DNA from: a virus
IMG/VR virus record: IMGVR_UViG_3300030333_008685
Coordinates: 1-39,130 of that record
Strand: one strand, 5' to 3'
Length of the DNA stretch: 39,130 nt
This document shows, piece by piece, positions 3,700 through 25,660 of the stretch (position 1 is the stretch's first letter; each line of letters begins with the position of its first letter). A model generated the notes under the pieces. The model saw only the letters and a program-made list of their open reading frames with translations. It searched no databases and was not told the origin of the DNA. Position numbers and translations under genes: made by a program.

Positions 3700-6140
3700 G
3701 ATTCACAATCTGGATTGTCGATACTACAAGCAACCACCTGACTTTCTTGAGCAGCAGTAATGTCTTCTTTCTTTACTGTCTTTACTGTACTCTTTTCTAT
3801 TTGACTAGCGCCTTTATTTCTTAGGTAATATGTTGTTTTTAGTCCAACCTCCCAAGCATGCATGTACATATCATTGAGAGATTTGAGAGATGTCTGATCA
3901 TTATACAAATTCAAGCTTTGACCTTGATCAATCCACACTTGCCTTGCAGCAGCTGCTGAAATTAATTTGATTTGATCCTGTTGAAATGCCGTCTTATATT
4001 TGTCTTTTAATCTATTCTTATCGTCTCTACTTACCCCCTTAGGAAACTCAAAGAGCGTCAAATCTCCGTTACATGCTTTAAGGTTTTCTAATGCATCTAT
4101 CGTCCAGACTCCAAGCTCTTTCATGTCTTTAACAAATGCATCATTTATCATGGTGAAATCGCCTGAGAGAGTGCTATATACAAAGATATTATTGTAATAA
4201 GGCTCAATACTTTGAGCACATCCAACAATACTACTAATGGTTGCAGTAGGTGCAATAGCCATTGTATTGGAATTTCTCATTCCATGCTTCTTAATATGGT
4301 TTCTAACCGTTGACCACTCAAGGGTTTCCGTTGCATCGAAGCTTCTACCCCTATATTCACATAAGGTTTTATATGTATCAAACGGTAATTTACCTTTATC
4401 CCATAATGAACCTTTGTAAGTTGAGTATGATCCACGCTCTTTTGCTAGTTTAGAGCTATTATATATAGCGTGATATGAAATAAACTCATAAATTCTATTA
4501 GATAACTTGATAGCTTCTTCAGAATCCATGTTAACATTGAGATGATAATACATATCATGCCATCCCATTGAACCTAAACCAATAGGTCTGTGTCTAGTAT
4601 TAGAGTTTTTAGCTTCTTCTGTAGGGTAAAAGTTAATATCTACAACATTATCTAACATTCTTATTGCTGTTGCAACAGTTACCTCTAGTTTGTCATAGTC
4701 AATATCGTCTTCTTTAAGATGTTCCCGTAAATTGATACTACCTAAATTACAAACTGCGGTCTCTCCATACTCTTTTATCCTTCTAGTGCCGTCCTCTCTG
4801 TATGTACTTGCTTTTGTATGCAATAAAATTTCAGTACATAAGTTAGAACTATGAACTACACCTTCATGCTGATTACTATAACGTAGATTTGAAGGATCTT
4901 TGAAGGTTATCCACGGGTGACCCGTTTCGAAGATCATTCGGAGCATCTTCTTCCAAAGCTCCTTCGCATCTACCTTCTTGAACGTCTTGAGCTCTCCTGC
5001 TTTACCACGTTTGATGCACTCTGCATACTCGTTTTCGAATTCTTCACCCCAGCTATCATGAAGTTTCGGACACTCGTACGGACTAAACAAATACCAATCG
5101 CCATTTTTCTTAACTTGCTTCATAAACAAGTCAGGAATCCAATTAGCGGTATTCATATCATGAGTACGTTTACGCTCATCACCTGTATTCTTTTTTAGTT
5201 CAAGAAATTCATTTATTTCACCGTGCCATGATTCAAGATAACCACAACCTGCCCCTTTTCGTTTGCCACCCTGGTTGACAGCAACAAGCATATCATTAAA
5301 AATCTTCCAAAAGTAAACAGCGCCTTGTGAAAGCCCATTTGTACCTTTGATATGATTACCAGCTGGTCTAAATGGAGTTAAATCCATACCAAGCCCACCA
5401 GCATATTTGCTTTTTAGAGCTTCTTGATGCAACCCATCAAAGATTCCATCTATGCTATCATCAAATGTTGAAAGAAAACAGGATGAGAGTTGATTGTGAA
5501 CACAACCAGAGTTAAACAGAGTGGGTGTTGATGACATGAATGTAAATGTAGATAAGACATCGTAGAACTTTTTAGCCCATTCTGTTTTATTCTCTTCTTT
5601 GATTGCGAGTCCCATTGCAACTCTCATCCAAAATGCTTGAGGGGTTTCTAACCTCTTTTGATCAATATGCAAAAGATATCGATCATAAATTGTTTGCAAG
5701 CCTAGGTATTCAAACTTGTCGTCACGTTCAAGCTTCAGATAGTTACTAAGCTCTGTTAGATCAAACTTGTTTAATTCTTTTGAAGCAAGACCAAATTTAA
5801 TTAAAGACTTTAAATTAACAATAAAAGTTTTTCTGTATTGCATTTCATATGCGTCTTTATCAGCACTTTCATTAAAAACTTCTTTTACAATTGTTTTATG
5901 CAACAATCTTGCTGCAACTTTTTTATATGCAGGTTCCTGCTCAATAAGAGCACGAGCTGACTTAATTAATGACTTATCAATATCAGAAGTTTTTACACCA
6001 TCAAAGAGTTTGATTCGTGCGTTGTATAAAATTTGATTACGATCAACACTTTCTATGTCTTTGCATGCCCGGTCAATGCATGCTCCTATTTTAGCTTCGT
6101 TAAAAGCAGCTTTTCTACCGTTACGTTTTATTACATTCAT
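3690..6140 (-). CDS. nrdA: Class I ribonucleotide reductase large subunit
   Basis: The product is 816 aa and reduces ribonucleoside diphosphates to deoxy forms for phage DNA synthesis. An N-terminal ATP-cone (residues 1-90, VIKRNGRKAAFNEAKI) provides allosteric activity control. The catalytic barrel shows C221 (LSSCFLSTF), the NLCTEI active-site block (Asn, thiyl Cys and Glu), CNLGSINL with the partner Cys, and PTATISSIVG. The C-terminal tail ends DNPDCESCQ, the swinging CxxC that is re-reduced by thioredoxin or glutaredoxin. All key residues are present. The small subunit two genes downstream lacks the radical Tyr, so the pair probably works as a class Ic-like enzyme. Upstream I see only a weak TATATT element, so promoter assignment is uncertain. 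Confidence 0.97.
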   Translation of the reverse strand: MNVIKRNGRKAAFNEAKIGACIDRACKDIESVDRNQILYNARIKLFDGVKTSDIDKSLIKSARALIEQEPAYKKVAARLLHKTIVKEVFNESADKDAYEMQYRKTFIVNLKSLIKFGLASKELNKFDLTELSNYLKLERDDKFEYLGLQTIYDRYLLHIDQKRLETPQAFWMRVAMGLAIKEENKTEWAKKFYDVLSTFTFMSSTPTLFNSGCVHNQLSSCFLSTFDDSIDGIFDGLHQEALKSKYAGGLGMDLTPFRPAGNHIKGTNGLSQGAVYFWKIFNDMLVAVNQGGKRKGAGCGYLESWHGEINEFLELKKNTGDERKRTHDMNTANWIPDLFMKQVKKNGDWYLFSPYECPKLHDSWGEEFENEYAECIKRGKAGELKTFKKVDAKELWKKMLRMIFETGHPWITFKDPSNLRYSNQHEGVVHSSNLCTEILLHTKASTYREDGTRRIKEYGETAVCNLGSINLREHLKEDDIDYDKLEVTVATAIRMLDNVVDINFYPTEEAKNSNTRHRPIGLGSMGWHDMYYHLNVNMDSEEAIKLSNRIYEFISYHAIYNSSKLAKERGSYSTYKGSLWDKGKLPFDTYKTLCEYRGRSFDATETLEWSTVRNHIKKHGMRNSNTMAIAPTATISSIVGCAQSIEPYYNNIFVYSTLSGDFTMINDAFVKDMKELGVWTIDALENLKACNGDLTLFEFPKGVSRDDKNRLKDKYKTAFQQDQIKLISAAAARQVWIDQGQSLNLYNDQTSLKSLNDMYMHAWEVGLKTTYYLRNKGASQIEKSTVKTVKKEDITAAQESQVVACSIDNPDCESCQ

Positions 6141-6141
6141 T

Positions 6142-6603
6142 TTATCTACAAAATATATAGCATTTAATCCCGGAAATTCTTTGGTAAAAAGGTATATTTT
6201 CGTTTTTAAAGAACAATTCTGGGTTAAATTTACTATTGCTTATTACGCTCAAGTTATCTAAAGGGTAAATACCAGAGCTAAAATTTTTATTAGAGTTTTG
6301 CGTGTTAATTTTAAATTCGAAAAACAATCTCTCATATGATTTTTCATCGAGGTCTTGCTTTTTCATATGCTTAATTAACTTTTTAAAATTATCATTACCT
6401 TCACATATGACACCATAAAAGTGTTTATCATTATGTTTCAATCTTACAGGTTTTAAACTTTTATCAATTAAGTGTCTTTCTTCATCATACCTATTTTCAA
6501 TGTTAAAACCGTAAAATATACAATAATCGTTAGTTAAAAAATTTGATATCTTATTGTACTTTAAACATAAGTCCAAATCTTGAGTTAAATCTATCGGCAA
6601 CAT
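6142..6603 (-). CDS. Hypothetical protein
   Basis: The product is 153 aa from the ATG at 6603. An in-frame ATG eight codons earlier lies upstream of the -10 box, between it and the -35 box, so it cannot be the start of this transcript. The chain starts MLPIDLTQDLDLCLKYNK, is rich in Asn, Phe, Tyr and Lys, and ends KCYIFCR. No domain is recognised. Its stop lies 1 nt before the nrdA start codon, so it is probably the first gene of an nrdA operon and the promoter at 6610-6637 may serve both. A role in nucleotide metabolism or its control is only a guess from this position. Confidence 0.7.
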   Translation of the reverse strand: MLPIDLTQDLDLCLKYNKISNFLTNDYCIFYGFNIENRYDEERHLIDKSLKPVRLKHNDKHFYGVICEGNDNFKKLIKHMKKQDLDEKSYERLFFEFKINTQNSNKNFSSGIYPLDNLSVISNSKFNPELFFKNENIPFYQRISGIKCYIFCR

Positions 6604-6609
6604 ACGGCT

Positions 6610-6637
6610 ATTATAAGAATGCTTCAAGTAGAATCAA
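6610..6637 (-). promoter_or_regulatory. Sigma70-type promoter for the gene at 6142-6603 and probably nrdA
   Basis: The minus strand reads TTGATT (6637-6632), 16 nt, TATAAT (6615-6610), 6 nt, ATG at 6603. This fixes the start codon. Confidence 0.8.
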
Positions 6638-6640
6638 CTT

Positions 6641-6871
6641 TTAGTTTAAAAAGAAAGATTTTTGCAGGAAGAGATTGGGGAGCTTATAAACTTTTGTAAC
6701 TTTACCTTGAGGTTCTTTAACAGTTACGGTTACTGTGTCTCCAGTAACTACAGGACCAGTTTCAATTTCACCGCCGACGTGTCTTACGTATTTTATAGCA
6801 CCAGTTGTGGTGTCTATTGTTTTAATTGTGTTTCTATCGTGACTACTTACGGTGATATTTTCGACGGCCAT
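6641..6871 (-). CDS. Small hypothetical protein, probably late
   Basis: The product is 76 aa, starting MAVENITVSSHDRNTIKTID. It is rich in Thr and Val with alternating beta-strand character (GPVVTGDTVTVTVKEPQGKVTKVYKL), which suggests a small beta-barrel or sandwich. A late-type TAAATA ends 5 nt before the ATG, as for the virion genes, so a minor structural protein is plausible. No family is recognised. Confidence 0.65.
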   Translation of the reverse strand: MAVENITVSSHDRNTIKTIDTTTGAIKYVRHVGGEIETGPVVTGDTVTVTVKEPQGKVTKVYKLPNLFLQKSFFLN

Positions 6872-6876
6872 TAAAA

Positions 6877-6882
6877 TATTTA
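6877..6882 (-). promoter_or_regulatory. Late-type promoter TAAATA for the 76-aa gene
   Basis: The minus strand reads AATAAATA with 5 nt to the ATG at 6871. It overlaps the stop codon of the gene at 6880-7059. Confidence 0.6.
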
Positions 6883-7059
6883 TTTTTTAGCCGTTTTAGC
6901 AGCAGGTTTTGACACAGCAGCGGCAAGTCCTTCAAGCTTTTCGATAATAATATCAAATTTACTTAATTGTTCGGTTAAAGCTGCAATTTGAGCGTCTTTT
7001 TGGTCGAGCTGCTTGTACATATCGTTGATTTTCTGAACTTCATCGTTTGTTAAGGCCAT
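6880..7059 (-). CDS. Small coiled-coil protein, probably late
   Basis: A 59-aa frame runs from an ATG at 7059 to a TAA at 6880-6882. It starts MALTNDEVQKINDMYKQLDQ, continues with a heptad-like helix (IAALTEQLSKFDIIIEKLE) and ends in an Ala/Lys-rich tail (SKPAAKTAKK). The helix with hydrophobic residues at a and d positions suggests a coiled coil. A TATAAATG late-type motif lies 5 nt upstream of the start, and its stop overlaps the next late promoter. The precise promoter spacing and the clean helix support a real gene. Function unknown; a small virion or assembly protein is likely. Confidence 0.7.
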   Translation of the reverse strand: MALTNDEVQKINDMYKQLDQKDAQIAALTEQLSKFDIIIEKLEGLAAAVSKPAAKTAKK

Positions 7060-7064
7060 ACAAT

Positions 7065-7072
7065 CATTTATA
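7065..7072 (-). promoter_or_regulatory. Late-type promoter TATAAATG for the coiled-coil gene
   Basis: The minus strand reads TATAAATG with 5 nt to the ATG at 7059, one base from the T4 late consensus. Confidence 0.6.
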
Positions 7073-7082
7073 CTAATAAATT

Positions 7083-7910
7083 CTATTGTCCACCAATATT
7101 AAGATTTTGATTTGACTTGTTCTTTTCTTCCATCTCTTTTGAAAAGTGTTTTATTATCTTTTTTGTTTCAATTGGGGTGTATTTTTGGAAATCAGTGTAG
7201 GAAGTGTTTAATTTGGTGGTAAAAATATAAACATAATAAAATAAACCTTCATAACCTTCAGAAAAACAAAGCTTCAAGAAGGTAAACATTTCATAACTGG
7301 TAAAACCAAACATATTATCTTTTAATTCACCGTCTTCAAACAATTGAAACAAAACTATAGGGGATTGTTTTATGGTTTTGACAGCATTTTTTAATAAAGG
7401 TATATATTTGTAAGGAATGTTTTGTAAAATCTTTTCTTTTTCATCTAAATCAATATTACCAAGTAATATTTCTTCATCTCCTAATTTAATTTTGTTTATA
7501 TAATCTAAAACCGAATTTCTTTTGGTTAATTTGGTTGGGGTACCAAGAGTAAAAAGCATACCTCCTATATCTTGTTTAACTACCGTAGGTTTATACCCTT
7601 CTAAAACGTTTTCTACAATAAGATTGATATCAATTGCTTGTTTATTACCTCCTTGAGAAGAAAAACTTAAAACAGGGTCAATATATTGAGCTCTTAATTT
7701 TAAAAGCAGTATAAATTTGTCAATAGCGTGTAAATTTTCTTCAGTTTGAAAAAGATAGTGGCAAAGTTTATCGAAATGATTGCCTAATAATTGGTCATCA
7801 TCATGTTCAATGTATTTTTGTAAGTCAATAAAATGTTTATTGTAAAATTCTCCACATAAAACTTTTTTATTGTTAGTTACAGTGATGGGAAATTTGAAAT
7901 CCAAACTCAT
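7083..7910 (-). CDS. Putative baseplate hub protein, T4 gp26-like
   Basis: The product is 275 aa, starting MSLDFKFPITVTNNKKV. It contains LHAIDKFILLLKLRAQYIDPVLSF, like the D-x-F-x-x-L-L-x-L-R-x-x-x-I-G block of T4 baseplate proteins of the gp26 family, and a helical C-terminal half. In T4, gp26 is a hub component or assembly factor of the baseplate. Position supports this: it follows tail-tube-type genes in a late minus-strand block. The assignment rests on a remembered pattern rather than a strict signature, so another baseplate subunit is possible. No clear promoter or Shine-Dalgarno sequence precedes it, so it may depend on the transcript from 8823. Confidence 0.5.
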   Translation of the reverse strand: MSLDFKFPITVTNNKKVLCGEFYNKHFIDLQKYIEHDDDQLLGNHFDKLCHYLFQTEENLHAIDKFILLLKLRAQYIDPVLSFSSQGGNKQAIDINLIVENVLEGYKPTVVKQDIGGMLFTLGTPTKLTKRNSVLDYINKIKLGDEEILLGNIDLDEKEKILQNIPYKYIPLLKNAVKTIKQSPIVLFQLFEDGELKDNMFGFTSYEMFTFLKLCFSEGYEGLFYYVYIFTTKLNTSYTDFQKYTPIETKKIIKHFSKEMEEKNKSNQNLNIGGQ

Positions 7911-7944: not shown

Positions 7945-8823
7945 TTAAAAATCCAATGGAGACACTTCAAAATTTACTTTATCACCGCGGTGACTACGCT
8001 GAAATATTCGTTGTTCAATTATATCAGCAATATTAAAATTCAAATTATTTGAAATTGTGTAATTAGAATAGACCCACTGCGTATCATTTAAATCCATTGA
8101 CTCGGTATCGTAAGTAAGATTTCTATTACCTATTGAAACCGGAAAACAATTATAAAAAGAATAAATTTTTCGAGGTACTTGAGATATACCTGCTAAAGTT
8201 TTAGCATATTGAAAAATACGAATTGTCGTACTCATATCTTTTGGATTTTTTAATACAGCTTGACCTGGTCCGACCATCGAAACAGGTTTTCTTGCAACAA
8301 AACCAAAATGACCAGAAAATATTGTCCAAGGCCTAATAACAAAGTCAACAAATGACGTAATCGTTTCGCGAAATTGAATAGTTAAGTTTTGATAACTGTT
8401 CATACCTTCACTAATTCTACCAGGTATAAAGCCTCTTTGTTTATCATTAAAAACTTTGTTACTGCTTGTTTGTAATTGTTGTAAATCTGGAATATTTACC
8501 CCTTGAGCTAAAACACACCCTTGAACTCTTTGCAAGGGGTCTTTTAATAAAGCTTCTACTGCTTCTTCATTGTTATTATTACGAGGATTTCCTTCCATTC
8601 TTTCTAAAGCTTGTAATAATGACATTCTAAGTACTGCAGGATAATCTTCTATAAAAACTATCCATTGAGTGCGCATTGGAATAGAAGTATGCCAATTTTC
8701 GAGATGTTTTAAAAATGTGGGTATAGGAGATACACCGGGTAATAAACCTACAGCTGATTCCGCTGGTGGTAAACCGCTTTCATCACCAGCTTGGCGTAAT
8801 AAATCTGTAACACCGTTGTTCAC
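7945..8823 (-). CDS. Putative tail-tube initiator or baseplate protein (gp19/gp54-like fold)
   Basis: The product is 292 aa from a GTG at 8823, where a late TAAATA ends 6 nt upstream. Its N-terminal 45 residues are Gly/Pro-rich. The rest has blocks seen in gp19-fold proteins: RTQWIVFIEDYP near the start and IPGRISEGMNSYQNLTIQFRETITSFVDFVIRPW in the middle. It ends with an asparagine-rich strand region (YSNYTISNNLNFNIADI). T4 gp54, the tube initiator on the baseplate, shares the tube fold, and the length and the place next to the tube gene fit that role. It could also be gp48-like. It is separated from the tube gene by a terminator, so it is an independent late transcript. Confidence 0.5.
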   Translation of the reverse strand: MNNGVTDLLRQAGDESGLPPAESAVGLLPGVSPIPTFLKHLENWHTSIPMRTQWIVFIEDYPAVLRMSLLQALERMEGNPRNNNNEEAVEALLKDPLQRVQGCVLAQGVNIPDLQQLQTSSNKVFNDKQRGFIPGRISEGMNSYQNLTIQFRETITSFVDFVIRPWTIFSGHFGFVARKPVSMVGPGQAVLKNPKDMSTTIRIFQYAKTLAGISQVPRKIYSFYNCFPVSIGNRNLTYDTESMDLNDTQWVYSNYTISNNLNFNIADIIEQRIFQRSHRGDKVNFEVSPLDF

Positions 8824-8829
8824 TTAAAA

Positions 8830-8835
8830 TATTTA
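8830..8835 (-). promoter_or_regulatory. Late-type promoter TAAATA for the gene at 7945-8823
   Basis: The minus strand reads ATTAAATA with 6 nt to the GTG at 8823. The promoter supports GTG as the true start. Confidence 0.6.
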
Positions 8836-8836
8836 A

Positions 8837-8873
8837 TCAAAAAAAACCGGCAACACAATGTTACCGGTTTAAA
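8837..8873 (-). terminator. Rho-independent terminator after the tail-tube gene
   Basis: On the minus strand a 12-bp stem (AAACCGGTAACA with TGTTGCCGGTTT, one T-G pair) with a TTG loop is followed by a T-rich run. It lies about 20 nt after the stop at 8895. Confidence 0.85.
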
Positions 8874-8894
8874 CTTTATAGAATAGAAATGCTA

Positions 8895-9512
8895 TTATTC
8901 GAAAGAGGCAGCACCTGTACCGAATTCGAACGATACTGAAACAGCAGATCTGGCAGCTTCTCTACTATTGTAACGTTGGAAATAATGATACGCCATTTGA
9001 GATGTAAAGTTAACAATAGTACCTGTTCCTGATGCCATGTTATATGTTAACTCTCCTACGTTTCTAATTGATACACCAACAAGGTTGTAAATAGCAACGT
9101 CATTTAATGCGTTATCTAATTGTACTAATGTCATTACAGCACCGCGTGTTGGTGTGTAATAATTACCTGTGCTAGTTTGTTCATCAAAAATCTCTCTAGA
9201 CATATCTTCAAACTTCTGTCTAATTTTAGAAGCTTGATCAGTATAAAATGTCATTGAGTAACTATCACTACCCGGGTAAGTTGCACTACCTGGAACATTG
9301 AATTGTAGTCCCATGTAAGGTACGGGTACGTTTGTTATAGCCCTGGCTGGTAGGTTAGCTGTTGTTGCATAAACAAAGTCGTTTTCATCAAATTCTATAG
9401 TACTACCATCGCCGGGATCCAAAGAAAGCACCCTGAATTGAAAGTCTCTTGCGAAGTCTCTCAACGATGCTATTCTATAAAAGTTTTGAATTGTCTGCGT
9501 TGTAACTGCCAT
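8895..9512 (-). CDS. Tail tube protein, T4 gp19-like
   Basis: The product is 205 aa against 163 in T4. Visible gp19-family blocks are ARDFQFRVL near the N-terminus, TANLPARAITNVPVPYMGLQ (the sheet with the conserved A-x-x-L-P), TMTFYTD-type residues as SMTFYTDQASKIRQKFE, and the C-terminal IRNVGELTYN followed by QMAYHYFQ. The protein forms the inner tube of the contractile tail, through which DNA passes. The gene follows the sheath gene, as in T4 (18-19). It has its own late promoter and its own terminator, fitting the high and separate demand for the tube protein. Confidence 0.85.
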   Translation of the reverse strand: MAVTTQTIQNFYRIASLRDFARDFQFRVLSLDPGDGSTIEFDENDFVYATTANLPARAITNVPVPYMGLQFNVPGSATYPGSDSYSMTFYTDQASKIRQKFEDMSREIFDEQTSTGNYYTPTRGAVMTLVQLDNALNDVAIYNLVGVSIRNVGELTYNMASGTGTIVNFTSQMAYHYFQRYNSREAARSAVSVSFEFGTGAASFE

Positions 9513-9517
9513 ACTAT

Positions 9518-9525
9518 TATTTATG
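9518..9525 (-). promoter_or_regulatory. Late-type promoter CATAAATA for the tail-tube gene
   Basis: The minus strand reads CATAAATA with 5 nt to the ATG at 9512; the same octamer stands before the sheath gene. Confidence 0.7.
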
Positions 9526-9542
9526 CTTTTAGATCGTATTCG

Positions 9543-9573
9543 AAAAAAAAGCCAGGCCTTTCGACCTGGCTTC
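9543..9573 (-). terminator. Rho-independent terminator after the sheath gene
   Basis: On the minus strand AAGCCAGG pairs with CCTGGCTT around an 8-nt loop, followed by eight T. It lies about 20 nt after the stop at 9591. Confidence 0.9.
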
Positions 9574-9590
9574 GATATGATCTAATTATA

Positions 9591-12140
9591 TTATCCGACT
9601 ATCTCGCTGAAGTCTTGCCCTGTTCTAGTTGCATAGAAGTTAACAAGAATAAACTCAGCGGCTCTAACTGGTTTCAAGTATATATCTACTACCAATTCAT
9701 TCGCATCAATGACGTCGGGCGTATTATTACGCTCGTCGCAAACAATGAGATAATCATAAAGGCCTTCATTGTTCTTTGCATCTTCGAATATTGGGGTTAG
9801 AACGTTAATGACGTTTGTCCTTGTAAACAACGTATTTGGCTCGAAGACAAAATACTTAACCGTCTCTCTTGTACGTTTCTCAAGATAAAGGAATAAACGT
9901 CTTACATTCACTCTATCAAACGCACTTGGTTGAGTTTGAAGTGTCTTCTGACCAAATATTACAAAACCTTCACTAGGGAAGAATGCAACCGGGTTAATAT
10001 TAACCTGATCATATAATTGGTCGCGCTGTTTCTGGTTCGGGTATAAAGCAATATCATTTGGATTGACTGTGCCTCTAGCAAAACCAGCTGGTGCATACCA
10101 AGGTGCATAATTAGCATCTGTCCTTGCATAAGCAGCGGCTGCTATACCAGAGAATGGAATCCAAACTTGACCACCTAAACCAGCATCATAAACCTGTGCA
10201 CATGTTGCATAAGCTGCTGCATAGTTTGTATTAATAATGTTATAGGTTTGCTTCAATGGCGATAAAATGCTAAGAGGGAAATTAGATCCTGGAATGTTAA
10301 TACCCTTCTGATTATCACCTGTTACTAAAATTTGCCTAATTGGATCAGAAACAAATATAAAATCCCTTCTGATGTTTTGAGCAAAATTAATAAACTTGTT
10401 TGTAACTGTAGCCCAACTTGATCTAATATTGAGTGCATTTGGACCTAAGTCAATACCTGTTGCAGAAAGCTCATTAATACCCATTAATGAATCTCTGTCA
10501 TCAAAATAATCACCAGCAGTAACTCCATCAACCGGGTTGAAAGGCGATCTGTTTTCGGCAACCTCTGTATTCTTAACCGTGGTCCAAATTGTACTTAAAC
10601 CACCGTCTGTCATAATATCAATATCAAAAAGATCTACATTAGCTAATCTATCGAAAACTCTGTCTATCTTTTCTGGTAAGTTACCAATCTTATTATTACT
10701 TGCTTTAGTTGTACTATACTTAGCTGCTGGTAACGCTGCTGCATTACCTTGACCGAATACATAATTGGACTCTCTTGTATAAAGATCACCAGATGTATTA
10801 TAAACAGCTCTTAACTCATTAAGCTCTGATATATTAGCTTGCGGCAAGCCAACAATTTGTTTATAAGTATAAGCAGCGTCCTGAGAAGGATATTCAAGAT
10901 TAACCAACTGGGTATTCAAGATACGAACTCTTCTCTTAGGTGTACCGTCTTCGTTAAGATCACTTCCAGCAAATCTACCAGAGATATTCGGGTTAATTTT
11001 TACTGCCATATTAACACTGTTATTGGTCATGATCTGTGGCAAGTAGAAACTATTCGGAGCACCACCAGTTGAGTTGTTAATTTGTCTGTAATAATCAATA
11101 CTACCGAAATAGCCTTCCTCTAACACATAATCGAGTTTGGTTACCTCTGGCGAAAAGACTGATTGACGTAATTTGTAAAGACCAAATACAAGAGTATCGT
11201 CAAATGAATTTGTATTAATTTCAAATGTAACAATACTTTCTTGTGTTTGTGAAATGTTAACTGGTATTGCGTCACTATTATATGCAGCAGACAAGTCAAA
11301 ATTCAATCTTGTGTTTGGAATGTCAGTCAAGCTTGAAAATTCTACAACGTCATCACTTTCTGTTTTAGATACTGTAAATCTTGTAATGTCGTCATAGTTA
11401 GTTGTTGCATACAAGTTAGTGTTATCAACAATAGATGTATAATAACCTTCTAACTTTTGGTTAATGGTTGTTTTGGCTGTGTTGAGAACGATAAGACCAG
11501 CATAACCTAAACTGGTTAACTGATCGGCAACACCTGTAGCTGTATTATCGACCGTAAATGACGGGGTTTGGCCTGCTGTAGCAACTGGTGAATTTTGCCA
11601 GCTAATACCTGAATCATCTAATATAGCAACATACTGTGACTGAGTTAGAGTGATAAAAGTAGGCTTACCTACAAAATAAATTACCGTGTCGTTAGCAGAT
11701 GCAGGAGAAAACTGTGTAGTTGGTCCTTCGTCTGATGTTGTGTCGTCGATATTTGCTGACAAATAGCTAGTTGCGGTACCGCTCATACTGTCGTATGCTG
11801 TCTTGTTGACAGGTAATACAGGATATACAGTAGCAAAATATTTGTTAGTAAACCCTTCACCAAGATCTGACCCGTAAGGTAAGCGGTTTACAATAATATT
11901 TGCTCTACTATTGAACGCCTGAGCTACGGTATGGTAAAAATACCGCTCCGCGGGGTTAGTTGGTTGACCGTATATCTGAGTAAATTCTGATAAACTCGAT
12001 ACTTGTACAATTTCGTCATTTGGTCCTGCAGGTGCATATCCAGTAATGAAGACATTTGTGCCGATTTTGTCAGCTGCTCTTAATGACAAATCTACTTCAT
12101 TAATTTCAACACCCGGACTTTGAATAGTTCTCCGTGCCAT
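9591..12140 (-). CDS. Tail sheath protein, T4 gp18-like
   Basis: The product is 849 aa, clearly longer than the 659 aa of T4 gp18. The N-terminus has the sheath signature SPGVEINEVDLSLRA with NVFITGYAPAGPNDEIVQV. The C-terminal third has GFVIFGQKTLQ, FDRVNVRRLFLYLEKRTRE, FEPNTLFTRTNVIN and AEFILVNFYATRTGQDF, the conserved sheath core that interlocks subunits. Residues of about 100-450 are Ser/Thr/Asn-rich and variable, as expected for the surface-exposed inserted domains. The protein contracts to drive the tube into the cell. It has its own late promoter (CATAAATA) and terminator. Start: an ATG 5 nt after the promoter. Confidence 0.95.
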   Translation of the reverse strand: MARRTIQSPGVEINEVDLSLRAADKIGTNVFITGYAPAGPNDEIVQVSSLSEFTQIYGQPTNPAERYFYHTVAQAFNSRANIIVNRLPYGSDLGEGFTNKYFATVYPVLPVNKTAYDSMSGTATSYLSANIDDTTSDEGPTTQFSPASANDTVIYFVGKPTFITLTQSQYVAILDDSGISWQNSPVATAGQTPSFTVDNTATGVADQLTSLGYAGLIVLNTAKTTINQKLEGYYTSIVDNTNLYATTNYDDITRFTVSKTESDDVVEFSSLTDIPNTRLNFDLSAAYNSDAIPVNISQTQESIVTFEINTNSFDDTLVFGLYKLRQSVFSPEVTKLDYVLEEGYFGSIDYYRQINNSTGGAPNSFYLPQIMTNNSVNMAVKINPNISGRFAGSDLNEDGTPKRRVRILNTQLVNLEYPSQDAAYTYKQIVGLPQANISELNELRAVYNTSGDLYTRESNYVFGQGNAAALPAAKYSTTKASNNKIGNLPEKIDRVFDRLANVDLFDIDIMTDGGLSTIWTTVKNTEVAENRSPFNPVDGVTAGDYFDDRDSLMGINELSATGIDLGPNALNIRSSWATVTNKFINFAQNIRRDFIFVSDPIRQILVTGDNQKGINIPGSNFPLSILSPLKQTYNIINTNYAAAYATCAQVYDAGLGGQVWIPFSGIAAAAYARTDANYAPWYAPAGFARGTVNPNDIALYPNQKQRDQLYDQVNINPVAFFPSEGFVIFGQKTLQTQPSAFDRVNVRRLFLYLEKRTRETVKYFVFEPNTLFTRTNVINVLTPIFEDAKNNEGLYDYLIVCDERNNTPDVIDANELVVDIYLKPVRAAEFILVNFYATRTGQDFSEIVG

Positions 12141-12199: not shown

Positions 12200-12778
12200 T
12201 CACACGTTGAGAAGATTGACTGTGAACTGGCTATAAGCAAGGGTAAATGACGATTCTATTTCTTCAGAGTCTCTATAAGAGTAATCAATACCTTCTAATT
12301 TAGTTGGAAACCCCTTACTGAAATTGAATTGCACAACTTTTTTGTTGTATTCGTCTAAACCATAAATGGTAAAATTAGCCATATAAAGGTCTTCATTAAC
12401 AAACCCCGGTGGGTATTCATTCTGAGCATCAAAAATACCTTTATACTCGTCGTTTAATTTGTTTAACCATGTATAAATGAACCAATAATTTTGGAATCTG
12501 TTATCAATTGTAAATTTTACTTCGATGGGATCATATACTGGTCTGTTATAACTAGTTACATTTAATGTCTGGCCGCTAAATCTTACACTTTCTTCAGGAA
12601 TACTAACAGTGGGTATAACACTCCCGTAAATCGAAAATTGCATTGAGTCGGGATTAACAAAAGTATTGTTTCTGACAGTTTTTGACACATCTTCTCGCAA
12701 TACCTTAGGTGTGGGTATTACCAGGACAAACTTGTCCTTTCTTTCCTTGTTAAAAGGTGACTGTGAATAATCTGCCAT
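12200..12778 (-). CDS. Tail-tube-fold protein (second gp19-like protein)
   Basis: The product is 192 aa, lying between terminase and sheath. Its pattern resembles gp19-fold proteins: DKFVLVIPTPKVLRE, then SVIPTVSIPEESVRFSGQTLNVTSYNRP, FTIDNRFQNYWFIYTWLNKLND, ANFTIYGLDEYNKKVVQF and a final SFTLAYSQFTVN. The last two blocks match the outer strands that close the tube ring. A second tube-like gene could serve as tail terminator, tube initiator or completion protein. Gene order 17-X-18-19 is unlike T4, where 17-18-19 are contiguous. It has its own late promoter overlapping the end of the terminase gene. It is surely a virion-type gene; the exact role is open. Confidence 0.65.
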   Translation of the reverse strand: MADYSQSPFNKERKDKFVLVIPTPKVLREDVSKTVRNNTFVNPDSMQFSIYGSVIPTVSIPEESVRFSGQTLNVTSYNRPVYDPIEVKFTIDNRFQNYWFIYTWLNKLNDEYKGIFDAQNEYPPGFVNEDLYMANFTIYGLDEYNKKVVQFNFSKGFPTKLEGIDYSYRDSEEIESSFTLAYSQFTVNLLNV

Positions 12779-12784
12779 TATAGT

Positions 12785-12790
12785 TATTTA
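12785..12790 (-). promoter_or_regulatory. Late-type promoter TAAATA for the second tube-fold gene
   Basis: The minus strand reads CTTAAATA with 6 nt to the ATG at 12778; it overlaps the last codon of the terminase gene. Confidence 0.6.
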
Positions 12791-14539
12791 AGATGATAGC
12801 CAAGAATCCGGTGCTGGGGAGAACGATCTTTGGGTTTGAAATTCATTAGCTGGTACCCATCCTGTCATTTTCATGTGGTCTAACTCAGCATTTTCGTCTT
12901 GATCAAATTTTTCGTTAAAGACAATAGTATCAACCATCTTTGTTTCGTCGTCTTGAGCCCAACTAAACAGCTTTTTCTCTAGTTGACCACCGTAATCATA
13001 GTCATAACGTCTTATCTCTGAAGGTCTCCCGTTGTTGTCATACCTTAATACTTCAAAATATCGTTTAATTAAGTCGTTATCTAATATTAAAAGTGCCCAA
13101 CCTAACGACATTACCCTGTCATCCATCATACCTACACCGGGTTTAGCTGCCCATTTACCATTTTCGTGTTTAATAAAGTTTTTTAACTCTACTAATGTTT
13201 CAAGTTCTCTAACATTTACCGAATGTAACTCGTTAATAAAATATCTCATGTTCATAACACAACGATATTTTGTGTTAGTGTGTGATATTACACCGATTCT
13301 ATTGTTTTTTATCTTACCTTGACCTGCTTCAAAGGAAACAATGTTACTATAACGGTGTGTCATATATAAATGATCAACAACCTGAGCACCACAACTGTTT
13401 CTTTCAATTAAAGCAGGTGGAGAACCCCATTGTACCAAAATTTCATACAGTTTTTTGGTGAAATTATAAGGGTTAATTGTGTTACTCCAGTAAGTAGCAA
13501 CTTGTTCTATGTTTTGAAGGTCTCTTAAGTCTAAAATTTGTATTACACTTGCGTTTTGATGAACACCTTCAGCAATATCAACACCCGCAACGTAAATCCC
13601 CTGTTCATCTGGTTCTCTCCAAATTTTATAGTTATCTTCGTCCATTACCATCTTAGGCTTTTGGCAATTAACCTTTAAAGCTTCAAACATTTCTTCATTA
13701 ATAGCCAATTCCCCAGCTGAAATGAATTCACAACCAAATTCTTGGTTAAAAGCTTCTTCACTACCAATAGTACGCATGGTTTCGAATTTCCATTGGTCAT
13801 CTCTTCCAGGTACTTCATGCCACAAGATTTTATCAAAGCCCCAACCGTTCTTTTCTTCAATTGCACCATTCCAAATTTTGTAAAAAAGGTTATCGGTACC
13901 ATTTGCAGTGGAAGCAATAAAGATTTTAGACTTTTTCGAAGATGAAATTACAGGAAAAACAGATTTCCAAAAACTATCTACCAAATGCGGTTCAATAAAC
14001 GCTAACTCATCCAGCACCAACACGTTAATAGATTGACCACGTGCAGCAGTACCAGTTGTGGTGCTAATACCTATTGTAGTGCCGTTAGAAAGCTTCATAG
14101 ACTCTTTACCATATTCTGTAACACCAGGTTTTAACCAGTTCGGTAACTCTTCATAAGCCATTCTAATACGAGAAAAGATTTCTTTTGCAGTACCTTCTTT
14201 GTTAGCTACAATTAATATACGTTGATCACTATTAAAACATGCATGCCACAACGTATAAATTGTCATCATTGTGGTTTTGCCTATCTGCCTAGAGGCTAGT
14301 AATATAAAGAAACGGTTATCCCTCATTCCCCTTAACGCTCTTTTTTGACATGAATGTAACCCGATCAATTCACGACCTCTATCTAGGTTAACAATATAGA
14401 AATAGTTTTCAGCAAAGTAAAGAAGGTTTTGTTTTGCCTTCTTAAGCTGTTTAACCATATCTGGTGTCCACTCAAACTGTGCATCACCTGTAGGTAGGTT
14501 AGGGTTACCCAAATAATAATCACGGGTATTCTTCTGCAT
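12788..14539 (-). CDS. Terminase large subunit, T4 gp17-like
   Basis: The product is 583 aa. The ATPase domain shows the Walker A block LASRQIGKTTM (about residues 81-91), Walker B VLVLDELAFIE, and coupling motif IASTANG. The RNase H-like nuclease domain starts at about 310 with YVAGVDIAEGVHQ, followed by the acidic pattern PALIERNSCGAQVVDHLY and GMMDDRVMSLGWALL. This is the motor that cuts concatemeric DNA and packs it into proheads. Length is close to T4 gp17 (610 aa). The small subunit (gp16) is not recognised nearby. The start codon lies 5 nt after a late promoter, back to back with the divergent late plus-strand block. Confidence 0.96.
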   Translation of the reverse strand: MQKNTRDYYLGNPNLPTGDAQFEWTPDMVKQLKKAKQNLLYFAENYFYIVNLDRGRELIGLHSCQKRALRGMRDNRFFILLASRQIGKTTMMTIYTLWHACFNSDQRILIVANKEGTAKEIFSRIRMAYEELPNWLKPGVTEYGKESMKLSNGTTIGISTTTGTAARGQSINVLVLDELAFIEPHLVDSFWKSVFPVISSSKKSKIFIASTANGTDNLFYKIWNGAIEEKNGWGFDKILWHEVPGRDDQWKFETMRTIGSEEAFNQEFGCEFISAGELAINEEMFEALKVNCQKPKMVMDEDNYKIWREPDEQGIYVAGVDIAEGVHQNASVIQILDLRDLQNIEQVATYWSNTINPYNFTKKLYEILVQWGSPPALIERNSCGAQVVDHLYMTHRYSNIVSFEAGQGKIKNNRIGVISHTNTKYRCVMNMRYFINELHSVNVRELETLVELKNFIKHENGKWAAKPGVGMMDDRVMSLGWALLILDNDLIKRYFEVLRYDNNGRPSEIRRYDYDYGGQLEKKLFSWAQDDETKMVDTIVFNEKFDQDENAELDHMKMTGWVPANEFQTQRSFSPAPDSWLSS

Positions 14540-19215: not shown

Positions 19216-19546
19216 ATCCTTCTATTATAGAGGCTATCCTTTTAACGTCAAAGTTAAAATTACTTAGCTTGGTGTTTTTCATCGCGTTTTCAATTACTTG
19301 AATGTTTAGCTTAAGAATGTTTTTATTGCAAGCTATGTTCTTGGAATTTTCCTCCAAAACATCGTCCAAAACCACTCTAATTAAATTCTCTAAAATTTTA
19401 TCTTTGTTTTTTTCATCCAAAGTCATTTTGGCAGCCATCATGCCTTTGGTATATGCATGGTAGTAAGGTGTACCATAATACCTCTCCTTCGAAGGAATGT
19501 TTCCTTCTGGCTTTATTGCCGGACTTTCTTGTTCATTAATTATCAT
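19184..19546 (-). CDS. Hypothetical protein
   Basis: The product is 120 aa. It contains GTPYYHAYTKGMMAAKM and a Lys/Asn-rich helical C-terminal half. No domain is recognised. A good Shine-Dalgarno (GAAGGAAAAG) precedes the ATG. It overlaps the upstream membrane-protein gene by 11 nt and the downstream gene by 32 nt, so the three form a tight operon. Confidence 0.6.
   Translation of the reverse strand: MIINEQESPAIKPEGNIPSKERYYGTPYYHAYTKGMMAAKMTLDEKNKDKILENLIRVVLDDVLEENSKNIACNKNILKLNIQVIENAMKNTKLSNFNFDVKRIASIIEGYGKYIEQQND
19224..19251 (-). promoter_or_regulatory. Sigma70-type promoter for the 92-aa gene
   Basis: The minus strand reads TTGACG (19251-19246), 16 nt, TATAAT (19229-19224), 8 nt, ATG at 19215. 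Confidence 0.75.
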
Positions 19547-19961
19547 ATTCTTTTCCTTCTGCGAAATTAAAATTCTTAAATGGGTCTTCTTCTAATGGGG
19601 TCGTTGTAAGAAATGATTTAGCTCCAATAAACACTTTTACCATTTTTTTACAACCAGGACATTCGTAAACATTTTCTTCATCCAATTTAATTGGTACAAA
19701 TGCTTTATGACCGCAATTTTCATCTGGGCAAACTGAATCTAAACCCATTGAATTGTATTCTTTAATACGTTCGTTTTGTAATTCTTCAAATTGAACTGCA
19801 CTTTGTTGTTTAACCCATATCATAAACAGGTTGTAAACAAATATCTGAAAAAGTACTGCTAAACCGAATACAGGCCAAAATGCTAAACCTAGAAGATAAA
19901 GTAAACCGCCTATAGAAGCACTAACAGAACTTAAAATTAGTATGGATTTCAATATACCCAC
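19536..19961 (-). CDS. Membrane protein with cytoplasmic zinc ribbon
   Basis: The product is 141 aa from a GTG at 19961, supported by a -10-like box 5 nt upstream. Residues 5-28 and 30-50 form two hydrophobic membrane segments in a hairpin (LILSSVSASIGGLLYLLGLAF, FGLAVLFQIFVYNLFMIW). Residues 78-106 carry two cysteine pairs (CPDENCGHKA and YECPGCKK), which look like a four-cysteine zinc ribbon. Small phage membrane proteins often target the host envelope or exclude superinfection; that is inference only. It heads a small operon with the 120-aa gene. Confidence 0.7.
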   Translation of the reverse strand: MGILKSILILSSVSASIGGLLYLLGLAFWPVFGLAVLFQIFVYNLFMIWVKQQSAVQFEELQNERIKEYNSMGLDSVCPDENCGHKAFVPIKLDEENVYECPGCKKMVKVFIGAKSFLTTTPLEEDPFKNFNFAEGKEYDN

Positions 19962-19994: not shown

Positions 19995-21239
19995 TTAAAC
20001 AACATTTAATTCACCAGTTGAATCACCAAATTTATGTGCATCAACTCCATGTTTATGTAATAAACTAACGAATAAGTCGCACATTGGTTTTTCTTTCTCA
20101 ACTCTAAAGTGGGTTCCTTTATTTTTACCACCAATTAACAATACTGGTAACTCATCATGATTGTGTCTGTTACCATCCGATATACCCGCACCGTAAATAA
20201 CGTCTGTATTTTCTAACATGTTATCTTTTTTAAGGTCAGAAATAAATTCAGAAAATAACCTAACATTATAAAGATCGATCATAGCTAAATCGTGGAGTTT
20301 TTTGGGGTCTTTTTGATGATGTGATAAGCTATGGTGACCTTCTGATATGCCAATCTCTCTATGCGGGCCATTATACCCGTCATGTTGAGTTAAGAATGTA
20401 ATAACTCGGGTTGTGTCATTTAAAAATGCTAAATGCATTAATTTATAAAGCAATCTTATCTTATCCGACTTTTTGTTTACTTCAAAATCTAAATGAAAGT
20501 CTTTATCAAGCTTAAACCTTTCTCTATTTTGTAAATCCTTTTCAACTTCTCTGACAGCATACATATATTCATCAAGCTTTATTTTGTCAGTGTTACCTAC
20601 TTTACCTACTAAAGATTTGGTATCTTCTAATACAAAATCTAAAATGGATTTTTTATATGCTAACTGTTTTTGTTTTAAACTCCTTACATTGAACAACCTA
20701 TTAAAAATATCTTGAGGATCATGCATTGCAGACATTGGTTGCATTGCGTTTTTCCATGAAAGGTTGTATTGATAAGCACAACTATACCCGGAATCACATT
20801 TACCAACTAACCGACTTTTACTTCCTGTAAACTGTAAACTATCAAATCTTGTAATGCCGTTGTATTGTTCAGCAATTAATTGATCAACAGATATTCCAGA
20901 ACGGATTTTAGACTCGTGTTTATGTGCTTGTTTACCAGTTAGAAAGGTTGAAGCAGCTCTTGCATGATCACCAGCACCATCACCATTGGCTCTAGCCTTA
21001 TCATGGGTAAGACCAGAAATAATTTGAGTTTCGTTAAGGTGATTTTCTAAAGGAGATAAGGTATTGGGTATATCAATTACATCGCCGTAATTTTTAGGTG
21101 TCCAATGTTCCATGTTAATACCGTTTGGAACATATACTACAGCTAATCTTTTTATTTCGTTAGTTACATTACCGAAACATTCTAGTTGAGGTAAAGCAAA
21201 CGTTAAACCTAACGACCCTACGAACTGTCTGCGGTTCAT
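19995..21239 (-). CDS. DUF1552-family protein with Tat signal
   Basis: The product is 414 aa. It starts MNRRQFVGSLGLTFALPQLE, a Tat-type signal with the twin Arg at 3-4 and a hydrophobic core to about residue 17. Then follow blocks I recognise from DUF1552: VVYVPNGINMEHWTP, LSPLENHL, GLTHDKARANGDGAGDHARA (residues 77-95), FLTGKQAHKHE, GISVDQL, CDSGYSCAY (148-156), LSWKN, KSILDFVLED and the C-terminal GAGISDGNRHNHDELPVLL. The family is abundant in Planctomycetes, Verrucomicrobia and Myxobacteria; its biochemical role is unknown. Length is normal and the frame intact, so it is not a decayed host fragment. A late promoter ends 5 nt before the ATG, so the phage makes it with its virion proteins. 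No phage role is known. Confidence 0.88.
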   Translation of the reverse strand: MNRRQFVGSLGLTFALPQLECFGNVTNEIKRLAVVYVPNGINMEHWTPKNYGDVIDIPNTLSPLENHLNETQIISGLTHDKARANGDGAGDHARAASTFLTGKQAHKHESKIRSGISVDQLIAEQYNGITRFDSLQFTGSKSRLVGKCDSGYSCAYQYNLSWKNAMQPMSAMHDPQDIFNRLFNVRSLKQKQLAYKKSILDFVLEDTKSLVGKVGNTDKIKLDEYMYAVREVEKDLQNRERFKLDKDFHLDFEVNKKSDKIRLLYKLMHLAFLNDTTRVITFLTQHDGYNGPHREIGISEGHHSLSHHQKDPKKLHDLAMIDLYNVRLFSEFISDLKKDNMLENTDVIYGAGISDGNRHNHDELPVLLIGGKNKGTHFRVEKEKPMCDLFVSLLHKHGVDAHKFGDSTGELNVV

Positions 21240-21244
21240 TTAAA

Positions 21245-21250
21245 TATTTA
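21245..21250 (-). promoter_or_regulatory. Late-type promoter TAAATA for the DUF1552 gene
   Basis: The minus strand reads CTTAAATA with 5 nt to the ATG at 21239; it overlaps the end of the gene at 21248-21652. Confidence 0.65.
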
Positions 21251-21652
21251 AGCTTCTGTATTACCGCTTTCAAACGGTTTTATTTGAAGCACAACATCTA
21301 AATCTTCGGTCATACTGTTAAGAATGCCTTTAATTTTTTCGCATTTATCAATAAATTCGTCTAATCCTTTAGAAGCATCTTCACTTTCTGTCACAACGGG
21401 ATTATCTTTCGTCTTACGTGCTTTAGCTTCAATATTGTCTGCAGCGAGAAACAAAGCTCCCATGTCCTCCACAATGTGCGTCATTGGGTAAGGTAATTCT
21501 AAGGGTGCTTTATTCTGATCATTGCGACCACTTGCTTGTAATAGGTCTGCTACCGTGACATGAGAGGGTTTTTGCTCTCTTGTAGCTATACCACGAACCC
21601 ATTTATTATACATTGCAATTTGATCTTCTGCAAGTAATTTTAAGCTTGACAT
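21248..21652 (-). CDS. Hypothetical late protein
   Basis: The product is 134 aa, helical and acidic (MSSLKLLAEDQIAMYNKWVRG at the start, CEKIKGILNSMTEDLDVVLQI near the end). No family is recognised. It has its own late-type promoter and stands back to back with the late plus-strand gene at 21685. Expression with virion genes suggests a structural or assembly protein. Confidence 0.65.
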   Translation of the reverse strand: MSSLKLLAEDQIAMYNKWVRGIATREQKPSHVTVADLLQASGRNDQNKAPLELPYPMTHIVEDMGALFLAADNIEAKARKTKDNPVVTESEDASKGLDEFIDKCEKIKGILNSMTEDLDVVLQIKPFESGNTEA

Positions 21653-24493: not shown

Positions 24494-24756
24494 GTTAAAT
24501 GCTGTGCTTCCAGAACTTTGTAAATGTTTTTTGGTAGAACTTCTACAAAATCAACAATTTCTGAATCAATTCCATTTTCGAAGTCAACAATAGGAATTTT
24601 AAGTTTATCATTACCTGGGATAGCTAAGAAACAGTAATGGTCTTGAAGGGTGTCAATGTAAGCTATGAATTTACCAGCATGGTCACCATTTTTAACAGCA
24701 TACAGGTACCGTTTTTTAGGTACTTTAGTATTTCTCGTAATACCGAACCATTTCAT
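24490..24756 (-). CDS. Small hypothetical protein overlapping the end of rmlB
   Basis: The product is 88 aa from the ATG at 24756, preferred over the ATG at 24771 because AAAAGGAA lies 4 nt before it. It starts MKWFGITRNTKVPKKRYLYA and has alternating strand segments (KFIAYIDTLQDHYCFLAIPG), suggesting a small beta-domain. The first 32 nt overlap rmlB in another frame. No family is recognised. Confidence 0.6.
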   Translation of the reverse strand: MKWFGITRNTKVPKKRYLYAVKNGDHAGKFIAYIDTLQDHYCFLAIPGNDKLKIPIVDFENGIDSEIVDFVEVLPKNIYKVLEAQHLT

Positions 24757-25660
24757 CCCATTCCTTTTCATCTTTTATAGAACGTCGTGGTCTAAAACCA
24801 ATTTTTTCAATTTTAGAATAATCTACTTGGTATTTTTTATCGTGACCAGGTCTATCTTTTATATAACTTATGCTAGCTTTAGGATTAACCCTTTCAATAA
24901 TCATATTTGCTATTTCATTATTTGAAAAGGTTTCTCCTGTACCAATATTATAAATTTCTCCTTGTTGTCCATACTGCAACACTTTGTATATTCCCCTAGC
25001 ATGGTCTTCAGCATGTATCCATTCTCTTTCATTCCTACCGTTACCGTAAATGTCAATATAATCGTACTTTTTAGCTGACATAATAGATTTGGGAATTAAT
25101 TTTTCTATATGTTGGCCTATTCCAAAGTTGTTACAACACCTTGTAATCCTAATATCCATGCCAAAAGTTTTGTAATATGATAAAGCTAATAAATCACCAC
25201 TTGCTTTAGATGCCGAATAAGGGGAATTTGGTTCTAAAAGTCTAGATTCATCCCAAGGAGCTTCACCTTCTTCGAGTGAACCATAAACCTCATCAGTTGA
25301 AACTTGTACATATTTTGGAATATAGTATCTTTTAGCTATGTTTAACATAGTACATGTACCTACCACGTTTGTACTTGCAAACGTACAAGGTCTATGTATA
25401 CTATTATCTACATGAGTTTCAGCAGCTAAATGAATTATTGCATCAAACCGGGGATGACATTTAAACCACTTATCAAGTTTAATTTGATCGGTGACAATAT
25501 CGAAACGAAGTGTTTCAACTGTAGGTACTCTTGTAATGTTTACGTAGTCACAGGCATAAGTTAGACTATCAATATTATAAACGTTGGCTCCTTTGGCAGT
25601 CAAATACCTACATAAATGACTGCCAATGAATCCGTGACCACCTGTGACTACGATATTCAT
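24725..25660 (-). CDS. rmlB: dTDP-glucose 4,6-dehydratase
   Basis: The product is 311 aa, an extended short-chain dehydrogenase. It shows the NAD-binding G7-G-H-G-F-I-G13, then LAAETHVDNSI, STDEVYG (T122-D123-E124, the catalytic acid pair of the dehydratase), and YSASK with Y148 and K152. Next come RCCNNFGIGQH (one residue off the usual TNNYGP), EREWIHAEDHARGIY and YNIGTGE. It turns dTDP-glucose into dTDP-4-keto-6-deoxyglucose. It follows the epimerase-reductase gene with 1 nt overlap and a GAGGA Shine-Dalgarno. RmlA, cut at the right edge of the window, would supply the substrate. Length is slightly short of bacterial RmlB (about 350). Confidence 0.92.
   Translation of the reverse strand: MNIVVTGGHGFIGSHLCRYLTAKGANVYNIDSLTYACDYVNITRVPTVETLRFDIVTDQIKLDKWFKCHPRFDAIIHLAAETHVDNSIHRPCTFASTNVVGTCTMLNIAKRYYIPKYVQVSTDEVYGSLEEGEAPWDESRLLEPNSPYSASKASGDLLALSYYKTFGMDIRITRCCNNFGIGQHIEKLIPKSIMSAKKYDYIDIYGNGRNEREWIHAEDHARGIYKVLQYGQQGEIYNIGTGETFSNNEIANMIIERVNPKASISYIKDRPGHDKKYQVDYSKIEKIGFRPRRSIKDEKEWDEMVRYYEKY

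Follow-up and report, generated by a model that had tools for sequence, protein, structure and literature searches.

What would a phage gain from a DUF1552 protein that carries an export signal? The initial annotation of the viral DNA analysed here (39,130 nt, which we call the window) described a full-length protein of this family with a twin-arginine signal, encoded between phage genes and starting 5 nt after a late-type promoter. It stated that a phage exporting such a protein at the end of infection would be new, suggested that the protein might modify the envelope, act on surface polysaccharide or be attached to virions, and expected it to give a clue to the host. Our analysis bears on each of these points, and extends beyond them to the mobility of the gene between unrelated phages, to a predicted alkaline-phosphatase fold, and to a wider pattern that includes the family DUF1501.

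A DUF1552 protein with a twin-arginine leader

The window protein aligns with positions 1-306 of the 307 positions of the PF07586 profile (274.7 bits, E = 1.6e-81; the curated cut-off is 30 bits), which bears out the full-length assignment. Its N-terminus (MNRRQFVGSLGLTFALPQL) begins with MNRRQF, where NRRQF is followed by the hydrophobic stretch GSLGLTFALPQL, and R3 and R4 are almost invariant in an alignment of phage and bacterial homologues. This is the make-up of a Tat leader. The HXXSHH motif is present as H303-S-L-S306-H307-H308. His 302, 303, 307 and 308 are invariant among the aligned homologues, and S306 is replaced (by T) in L185 alone. The other invariant residues include those of GDHAR, CDSGYSC and H-x-H (Table 1), and both the RR leader and the His/Cys motifs are retained across viral lineages. 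The gene is under purifying selection in phages, with a median pairwise dN/dS of 0.092 and a maximum of 0.16 over 26 usable pairs.

Pfam searches gave no match of the window protein to DUF1501 (PF07394), nor to the sulfatases (PF00884) up to E = 0.1, and a sequence search of the PDB gave zero matches. PHROGs has no assigned family for it, and no relative was found among 50,697 deposited phage records. Its absence from both collections agrees with the claim of novelty. In the literature searched, the papers naming DUF1552 did not concern phages, as judged by title and relevant passages.

Table 1. Positions of the features discussed. Positions are those of the window unless a contig is named.
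Feature	Position	Strand	Size or residues	Basis
Late-type box TAAATA, 5 nt ahead of ATG, sharing nucleotides with the stop codon of the preceding gene	21245..21250	minus		sequence
DUF1552 / HXXSHH (PF07586) gene, ATG at 21239	19995..21239	minus	414 aa	ORF and profile match
Twin-arginine (Tat-type) N-terminal signal, MNRRQFVGSLGLTFALPQLECFGNV	21165..21239	minus		sequence; RR near-invariant in phage and bacterial homologues
GDHAR motif, invariant	20958..20972	minus	residues 90-94	alignment
CDSGYSC motif, invariant	20778..20798	minus	residues 148-154	alignment
HHSLSHH motif (HHxxxHH), source of the Pfam family name	20316..20336	minus	residues 302-308	Pfam match and alignment
DGNRHNHD motif, H359 and H361 invariant	20154..20177	minus	residues 355-362	alignment
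c7, upstream neighbour	21248..21652	minus	134 aa	conserved in relatives without DUF1552 at the site
c8, downstream neighbour	19536..19961	minus	141 aa	~33 bp from c7 in relatives with an empty site
Terminase large subunit (gp17-like)	12788..14539	minus		PHROGs; late box
Tail tube-like gene (gp19-like)	12200..12778	minus		assigned by its position next to the sheath gene; late box
Tail sheath (gp18-like)	9591..12140	minus		PHROGs; late box
PSCyt2-PSD1 phage genes (mostly with PSCyt1) beside DUF1501	L297:9374-12739, L278:9331-12303, L273:9202-11952, L271:285-2666, L255:6268-8001			Pfam

Carriage by T4-like and other phages

The genes flanking DUF1552 are phage genes according to PHROGs (primase, RNase H, gp17, gp18, NrdA, UvsX, gp32, gp41 and clamp), as initially proposed, and gp23 was found in related DUF1552-carrying contigs of 201, 116 and 115 kb. 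Judged by this gene content (gp17, gp18 and replication genes, with gp23 in relatives), the genome carrying the window gene is that of a T4-like phage. Two scans identified DUF1552 with 71-98% identity in 25 other IMG/VR viral contigs, some with T4-like contexts; two of the loci, L018 and L019, share one contig. Carriers are large, mostly uncultured water phages. PF07586 was not found among 32 terminase-bearing relatives, most of which are fragments, so that this result has little weight.

An assembly chimera or bacterial contamination would fit the lack of any match in the 50,697 phage records. It is ruled out by several lines of evidence. The same gene occupies the same site, with 98% identity, in contigs from two other metagenome assemblies (L002 and L003), and close relatives have an empty site. 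The gene is also phage-like in composition (GC 0.336 and GC3 0.24; a bacterial homologue has 0.57 and 0.66), is preceded by a late box of phage type, is under purifying selection, and recurs in the other viral contigs.

Some neighbouring genes deserve mention in their own right. In the window, a Nol-like carbamoyltransferase (35653-37257; phrog_1601, E = 1e-117) and a sugar epimerase-like gene (24725-25660) are possible surface-sugar genes. The window tail sheath has 849 aa and seems to contain a large additional part, because deposited phages align with roughly its last third only. Among other carriers, L012 has a Tubulin/FtsZ-family gene with a weak PhuZ PHROG match (8502-9758), and a small ferredoxin (Fer4_13) gene lies directly upstream of DUF1552 in L030 (9588-9824), as it does in L009, L010, L028 and L029. 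An ammonium transporter gene (AmtB) is found upstream of DUF1552 in L027 (1458-2702; Pfam E = 2.8e-115) and also occurs in L012, L013 and L029. Between AmtB and DUF1552, both L027 and L029 have a permease that resembles PiT by eye (c83), for which Pfam gave no match. The capsid-region genes of L014 and L031 had no matches in PHROGs or phage records.

Evidence for transfer between phages

The window and the 201-kb phage have DUF1552 proteins that are 86.7% identical, whereas the other genes compared are much more divergent (gp17 54%, gp18 41%, gp19 37%, UvsX 59%, primase 49%). The protein is still 71-78% identical in L012, L013, L014, L016, L027, L029, L031 and the L011 group. None of 15 other window genes tested was found in L012, L013, L014, L031 and the L011 group, and the sole further match of L016, L027 and L029 to the window is a weak one to gp17 (28-31% over 99-162 aa). 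Several of these contigs are short, and common genes may fall outside them; the strongest case is the 79-kb L012. An identity so far above that of the other genes, and its persistence in otherwise unrelated contigs, mark DUF1552 as mobile phage cargo, and transfer from phage to phage would explain the sequences most simply. We also considered exceptionally slow evolution of DUF1552, which alone fails to account for its differing genomic sites: the gene lies between sheath-side genes and the tube gene in L004-L010, L017, L028 and L030, and elsewhere in other contigs.

The insertion site tells a similar story. In L054, L055 and L057 (gp17 identity 85%), only ~33 bp separate c7 from c8, which we read as the empty site. 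At the same gap, the more distant L060, L063, L064 and L068 have another ORF of ~85-100 codons, as if this were a spot for accessory genes. In L002 and L003, DUF1552 is followed by two genes characterised by eye, c24 (small, with a leader of lipoprotein type) and c17 (HTH-like). The pair recurs downstream of DUF1552 in L012, L013 and L016, contigs that are otherwise unrelated, and only c17 was seen in L027. This recurrence in unrelated phages indicates that part of the cargo travels together.

A late-type promoter box upstream of the gene

The sequence preceding DUF1552 is GCTTAAATATTTAA-ATG, with the TAAATA placed as the initial annotation had described it, on what proves to be the minus strand. 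TAAATA occurs within 25 nt of 14 of the 42 start codons of the window, at offsets of 5-9 nt, against 1.1% of random 25-nt windows. The genes preceded by it include gp17, gp18, gp19 and others of that region. It hardly ever stands before replication genes; several of these have boxes resembling TATAAT instead. Late genes under T4-type promoters have a box like TATAAATA; the window copy reads TTAAATA, and the complete TATAAATA is found in L028 and L030. By its sequence and its company, the box of the window DUF1552 would thus be a T4-type late promoter.

The box lies 5-6 nt before the DUF1552 start in all 16 loci of the T4-like contigs and of the L011/L024-L026 group, at varied genomic sites, so the putative promoter stays with the gene when its location differs. 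No TAAATA was found upstream of DUF1552 in L012, L013, L014, L027, L029 and L031, which by appearance are other phage types. Because of this absence, the data suggest that late timing applies solely to the T4-like group and to L011/L024-L026.

Predicted fold and putative active site

With a shallow alignment, AF2 produced a model of low confidence (pLDDT 50.5) whose leading PDB matches all belonged to the alkaline-phosphatase superfamily. Adding the divergent viral homologues raised the values to a pLDDT of 71.1 and a pTM of 0.74. Searches with the AF2 model by Foldseek gave E = 1.6e-6, all PDB matches listed being of the same superfamily, and VIA gave Z scores of 15.7-17.4 over ~230-270 residues, the best-ranked matches being NPP phosphodiesterases, PafA and sulfatases. 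The models thus predict that DUF1552 shares the alpha/beta fold of this superfamily. Profile-profile comparisons (hhalign) link DUF1552 to DUF1501 (E = 4.8e-7) and DUF1501 to the sulfatases (E = 4.5e-7); the direct link of DUF1552 to the sulfatases has a probability of just 12.7.

The hhalign alignment pairs GDHARxxxxFLTG of DUF1552 with NHxPAxxxxLTG of DUF1501. Sulfatases and NPPs have their nucleophile ahead of a TG motif. In the window protein, H92 stands 9 residues before T101-G102, the place expected of the nucleophile from motif spacing. We could not recognise in DUF1552 the Ser/Thr/Cys nucleophile or the metal motifs that are canonical for the superfamily, and for this reason it may be no hydrolase at all. 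The predicted fold is thus familiar, with a His-rich site of its own, and any hydrolase activity is putative.

The predicted fold also fits a nutrient-scavenging auxiliary metabolic gene, whose exported product would free phosphate or sulfate from organic esters for phage replication, as cyanophage phoA may do. We keep this explanation because an ammonium transporter lies near some carriers (L012, L013, L027 and L029), joined in L027 and L029 by the PiT-like permease. Yet we consider it unlikely: the late-type promoter of the T4-like group would act after most DNA synthesis, no canonical catalytic motif is recognisable, and transporters are missing from the window and from the T4-like neighbourhoods inspected.

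Divergent viral relatives and the sister family DUF1501

A bacterial profile (A5) retrieved five more viral DUF1552 loci, representing four divergent lineages (L185, L186, L204/L205 and L207). The viral scan with profile A4, whose patterns were poor, gave no divergent relatives. By eye, DUF1552 adjoins T4 gp23-like and gp22-like genes in L186 and lies between tail-fibre-like genes in L204/L205. The main phage clade of the tree is supported at 100/100 on a long stem, L225 (on the contig of L204) groups with L207 at 100/100, and L185 and L186 branch separately. Viral DUF1552 may have been acquired repeatedly from bacteria, with a single origin of all of them not rejected (AU, p = 0.076).

The tail-fibre-like surroundings of L204/L205 and the late box common to tail genes are what one would expect of a virion-associated protein, e.g. 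a tail or capsid decoration working on surface polymers at entry. The conserved twin-arginine leader speaks instead for export and against assembly into virions in the cytoplasm, and the placement relative to tail genes varies between phages; we regard this explanation as very improbable.

DUF1501 occurs at 70 viral loci (L229-L298) in contigs of up to 238 kb, and nearly all copies begin with a leader of twin-arginine type. In several phages two DUF1501 genes lie near each other, and in L207 a DUF1501 gene (4495-5781) directly precedes DUF1552 (5998-7278). One terminase profile matched 16 of the 31 viral records tested, carriers of DUF1501 and DUF1552 pooled. No PHROGs family was assigned to any of nine viral DUF1501 tested, and neither of two had a match in deposited phage records. 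Phage DUF1501 is already present in databases: BFVD contains one phage entry of that name. Our literature search gave no paper on such an occurrence, and the one phage paper naming DUF1501 refers to a weak match of a 61-aa ORF. A gene of the homologue cluster c4 is found at 14 DUF1501 loci, adjacent or a few kb off. All five c4 members compared with Pfam matched PSCyt2 and PSD1, and four of them also PSCyt1 (Table 1), which is the make-up of the bacterial partner of DUF1501.

Bacterial relatives and probable hosts

DUF1552 relatives were found in 46 of 388 Verrucomicrobiota genomes. One verrucomicrobial genome has 10 DUF1552 and 52 DUF1501 matches, and in all 10 cases DUF1552 lies beside a PSD4 (DUF1592) gene. 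A PSD4/PSCyt3 neighbour is usual in bacteria, if not strictly defining for PF07586. DUF1501 bears a Tat motif (PMC5122149) and is a marker of a module found in compartmentalised PVC species (PMC4452313, PMC4960237). One study places PSCyt genes, which may act on carbohydrates, alongside families of unknown function (PMC5615132).

The hosts are probably of Planctomycete/Verrucomicrobia (PVC) type, because other large phages carry the PVC-typical DUF1501/PSCyt modules and because the AmtB of L027 is up to 65% identical to proteins of Verrucomicrobiota, the phylum compared. As a host marker, the secreted neighbour c34 yielded no clear signal. The expected host clue therefore holds in its broad form, pointing to PVC-type bacteria, and goes no further, since no bacterial member retrieved exceeds 47% identity with the phage proteins, in a search of phyla other than Planctomycetota.

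PSD4 was found in none of the 13 phage DUF1552 records tested, several of which are fragments. We keep a further explanation because of this missing partner gene: phage DUF1552 might replace or disturb a host subunit paired with a PSCyt3/PSD-type exported cytochrome-like protein. That other large phages have DUF1501 together with its own partner PSCyt2-PSD1 is consistent with it. The distance of the phage branch, its long stem and the lack of an obvious close copy of a host subunit make it quite unlikely.

Proposed role and significance

Our preferred reading is that DUF1552 is mobile cargo encoding a late, Tat-exported protein of the alkaline-phosphatase superfamily that alters the envelope of a PVC-type host; we give it a probability of about 0.45. 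The gene, of presumed bacterial origin, is found in T4-like phages and in at least one further type of phage. In the former, the box suggests that a late promoter of its own drives its transcription together with the virion genes. The RR leader implies that the protein would fold in the cytoplasm before export by the host Tat system, to act in the periplasm or at the cell surface. Its His-rich site would probably bind metal. Its most likely role would be to modify or strip, late in infection, a polymer of the envelope or cell surface that bears phosphate or sulfate, and thereby to aid release or prevent re-adsorption. We favour release or exclusion over nutrient supply because of the late-type box and the structural-gene setting. 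More tentatively, and with some doubt, large phages of PVC bacteria may share a travelling set of Tat-exported proteins of alkaline-phosphatase fold (DUF1552, DUF1501, some with cytochrome-like partners) that would form a late-acting system for rewriting envelopes or surface glycans.

That phages keep, move and conserve DUF1552 and DUF1501, in one group with a late-type promoter, suggests that these proteins matter within one infection cycle. The function of families present in many copies in some Verrucomicrobia thereby becomes testable in a single-gene setting. If such a shared set exists, phages offer a handle on the role of the abundant DUF1501/DUF1552-PSCyt modules. Carriage further singles out groups of uncultured phages that are likely to infect PVC bacteria, for which few phages are known.

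Comparison with known systems

Bacterial DUF1552 (Verrucomicrobiota, Armatimonadota) have the same full-length profile, RR leader and GDHAR, CDSGYSC, HHxxSHH and H-x-H motifs, whereas the phage gene is AT-rich, has a late box and lacks the PSD4/PSCyt3 partner. DUF1501 (PF07394) resembles DUF1552 in its profile, Tat leader and carriage by large phages, and one phage DUF1501 cross-matches PF07586 at 1.4e-5. It is nevertheless a separate family, whose bacterial partner is PSCyt2/PSD1, when that of DUF1552 is PSD4. The alkaline-phosphatase superfamily (NPP, PafA, sulfatases, LtaS) has the fold predicted for DUF1552, but the identity is ~10%, and DUF1552 has a His at the nucleophile spacing and His-rich motifs of its own. 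Compared with sulfatases, the window protein has neither the C/S-x-P-S-R signature nor the PF00884 match. Cyanophage phoA and other auxiliary metabolic genes are likewise host-derived genes in T4-like phages; DUF1552 differs from phoA by its late-type promoter and is probably not a canonical phosphatase.
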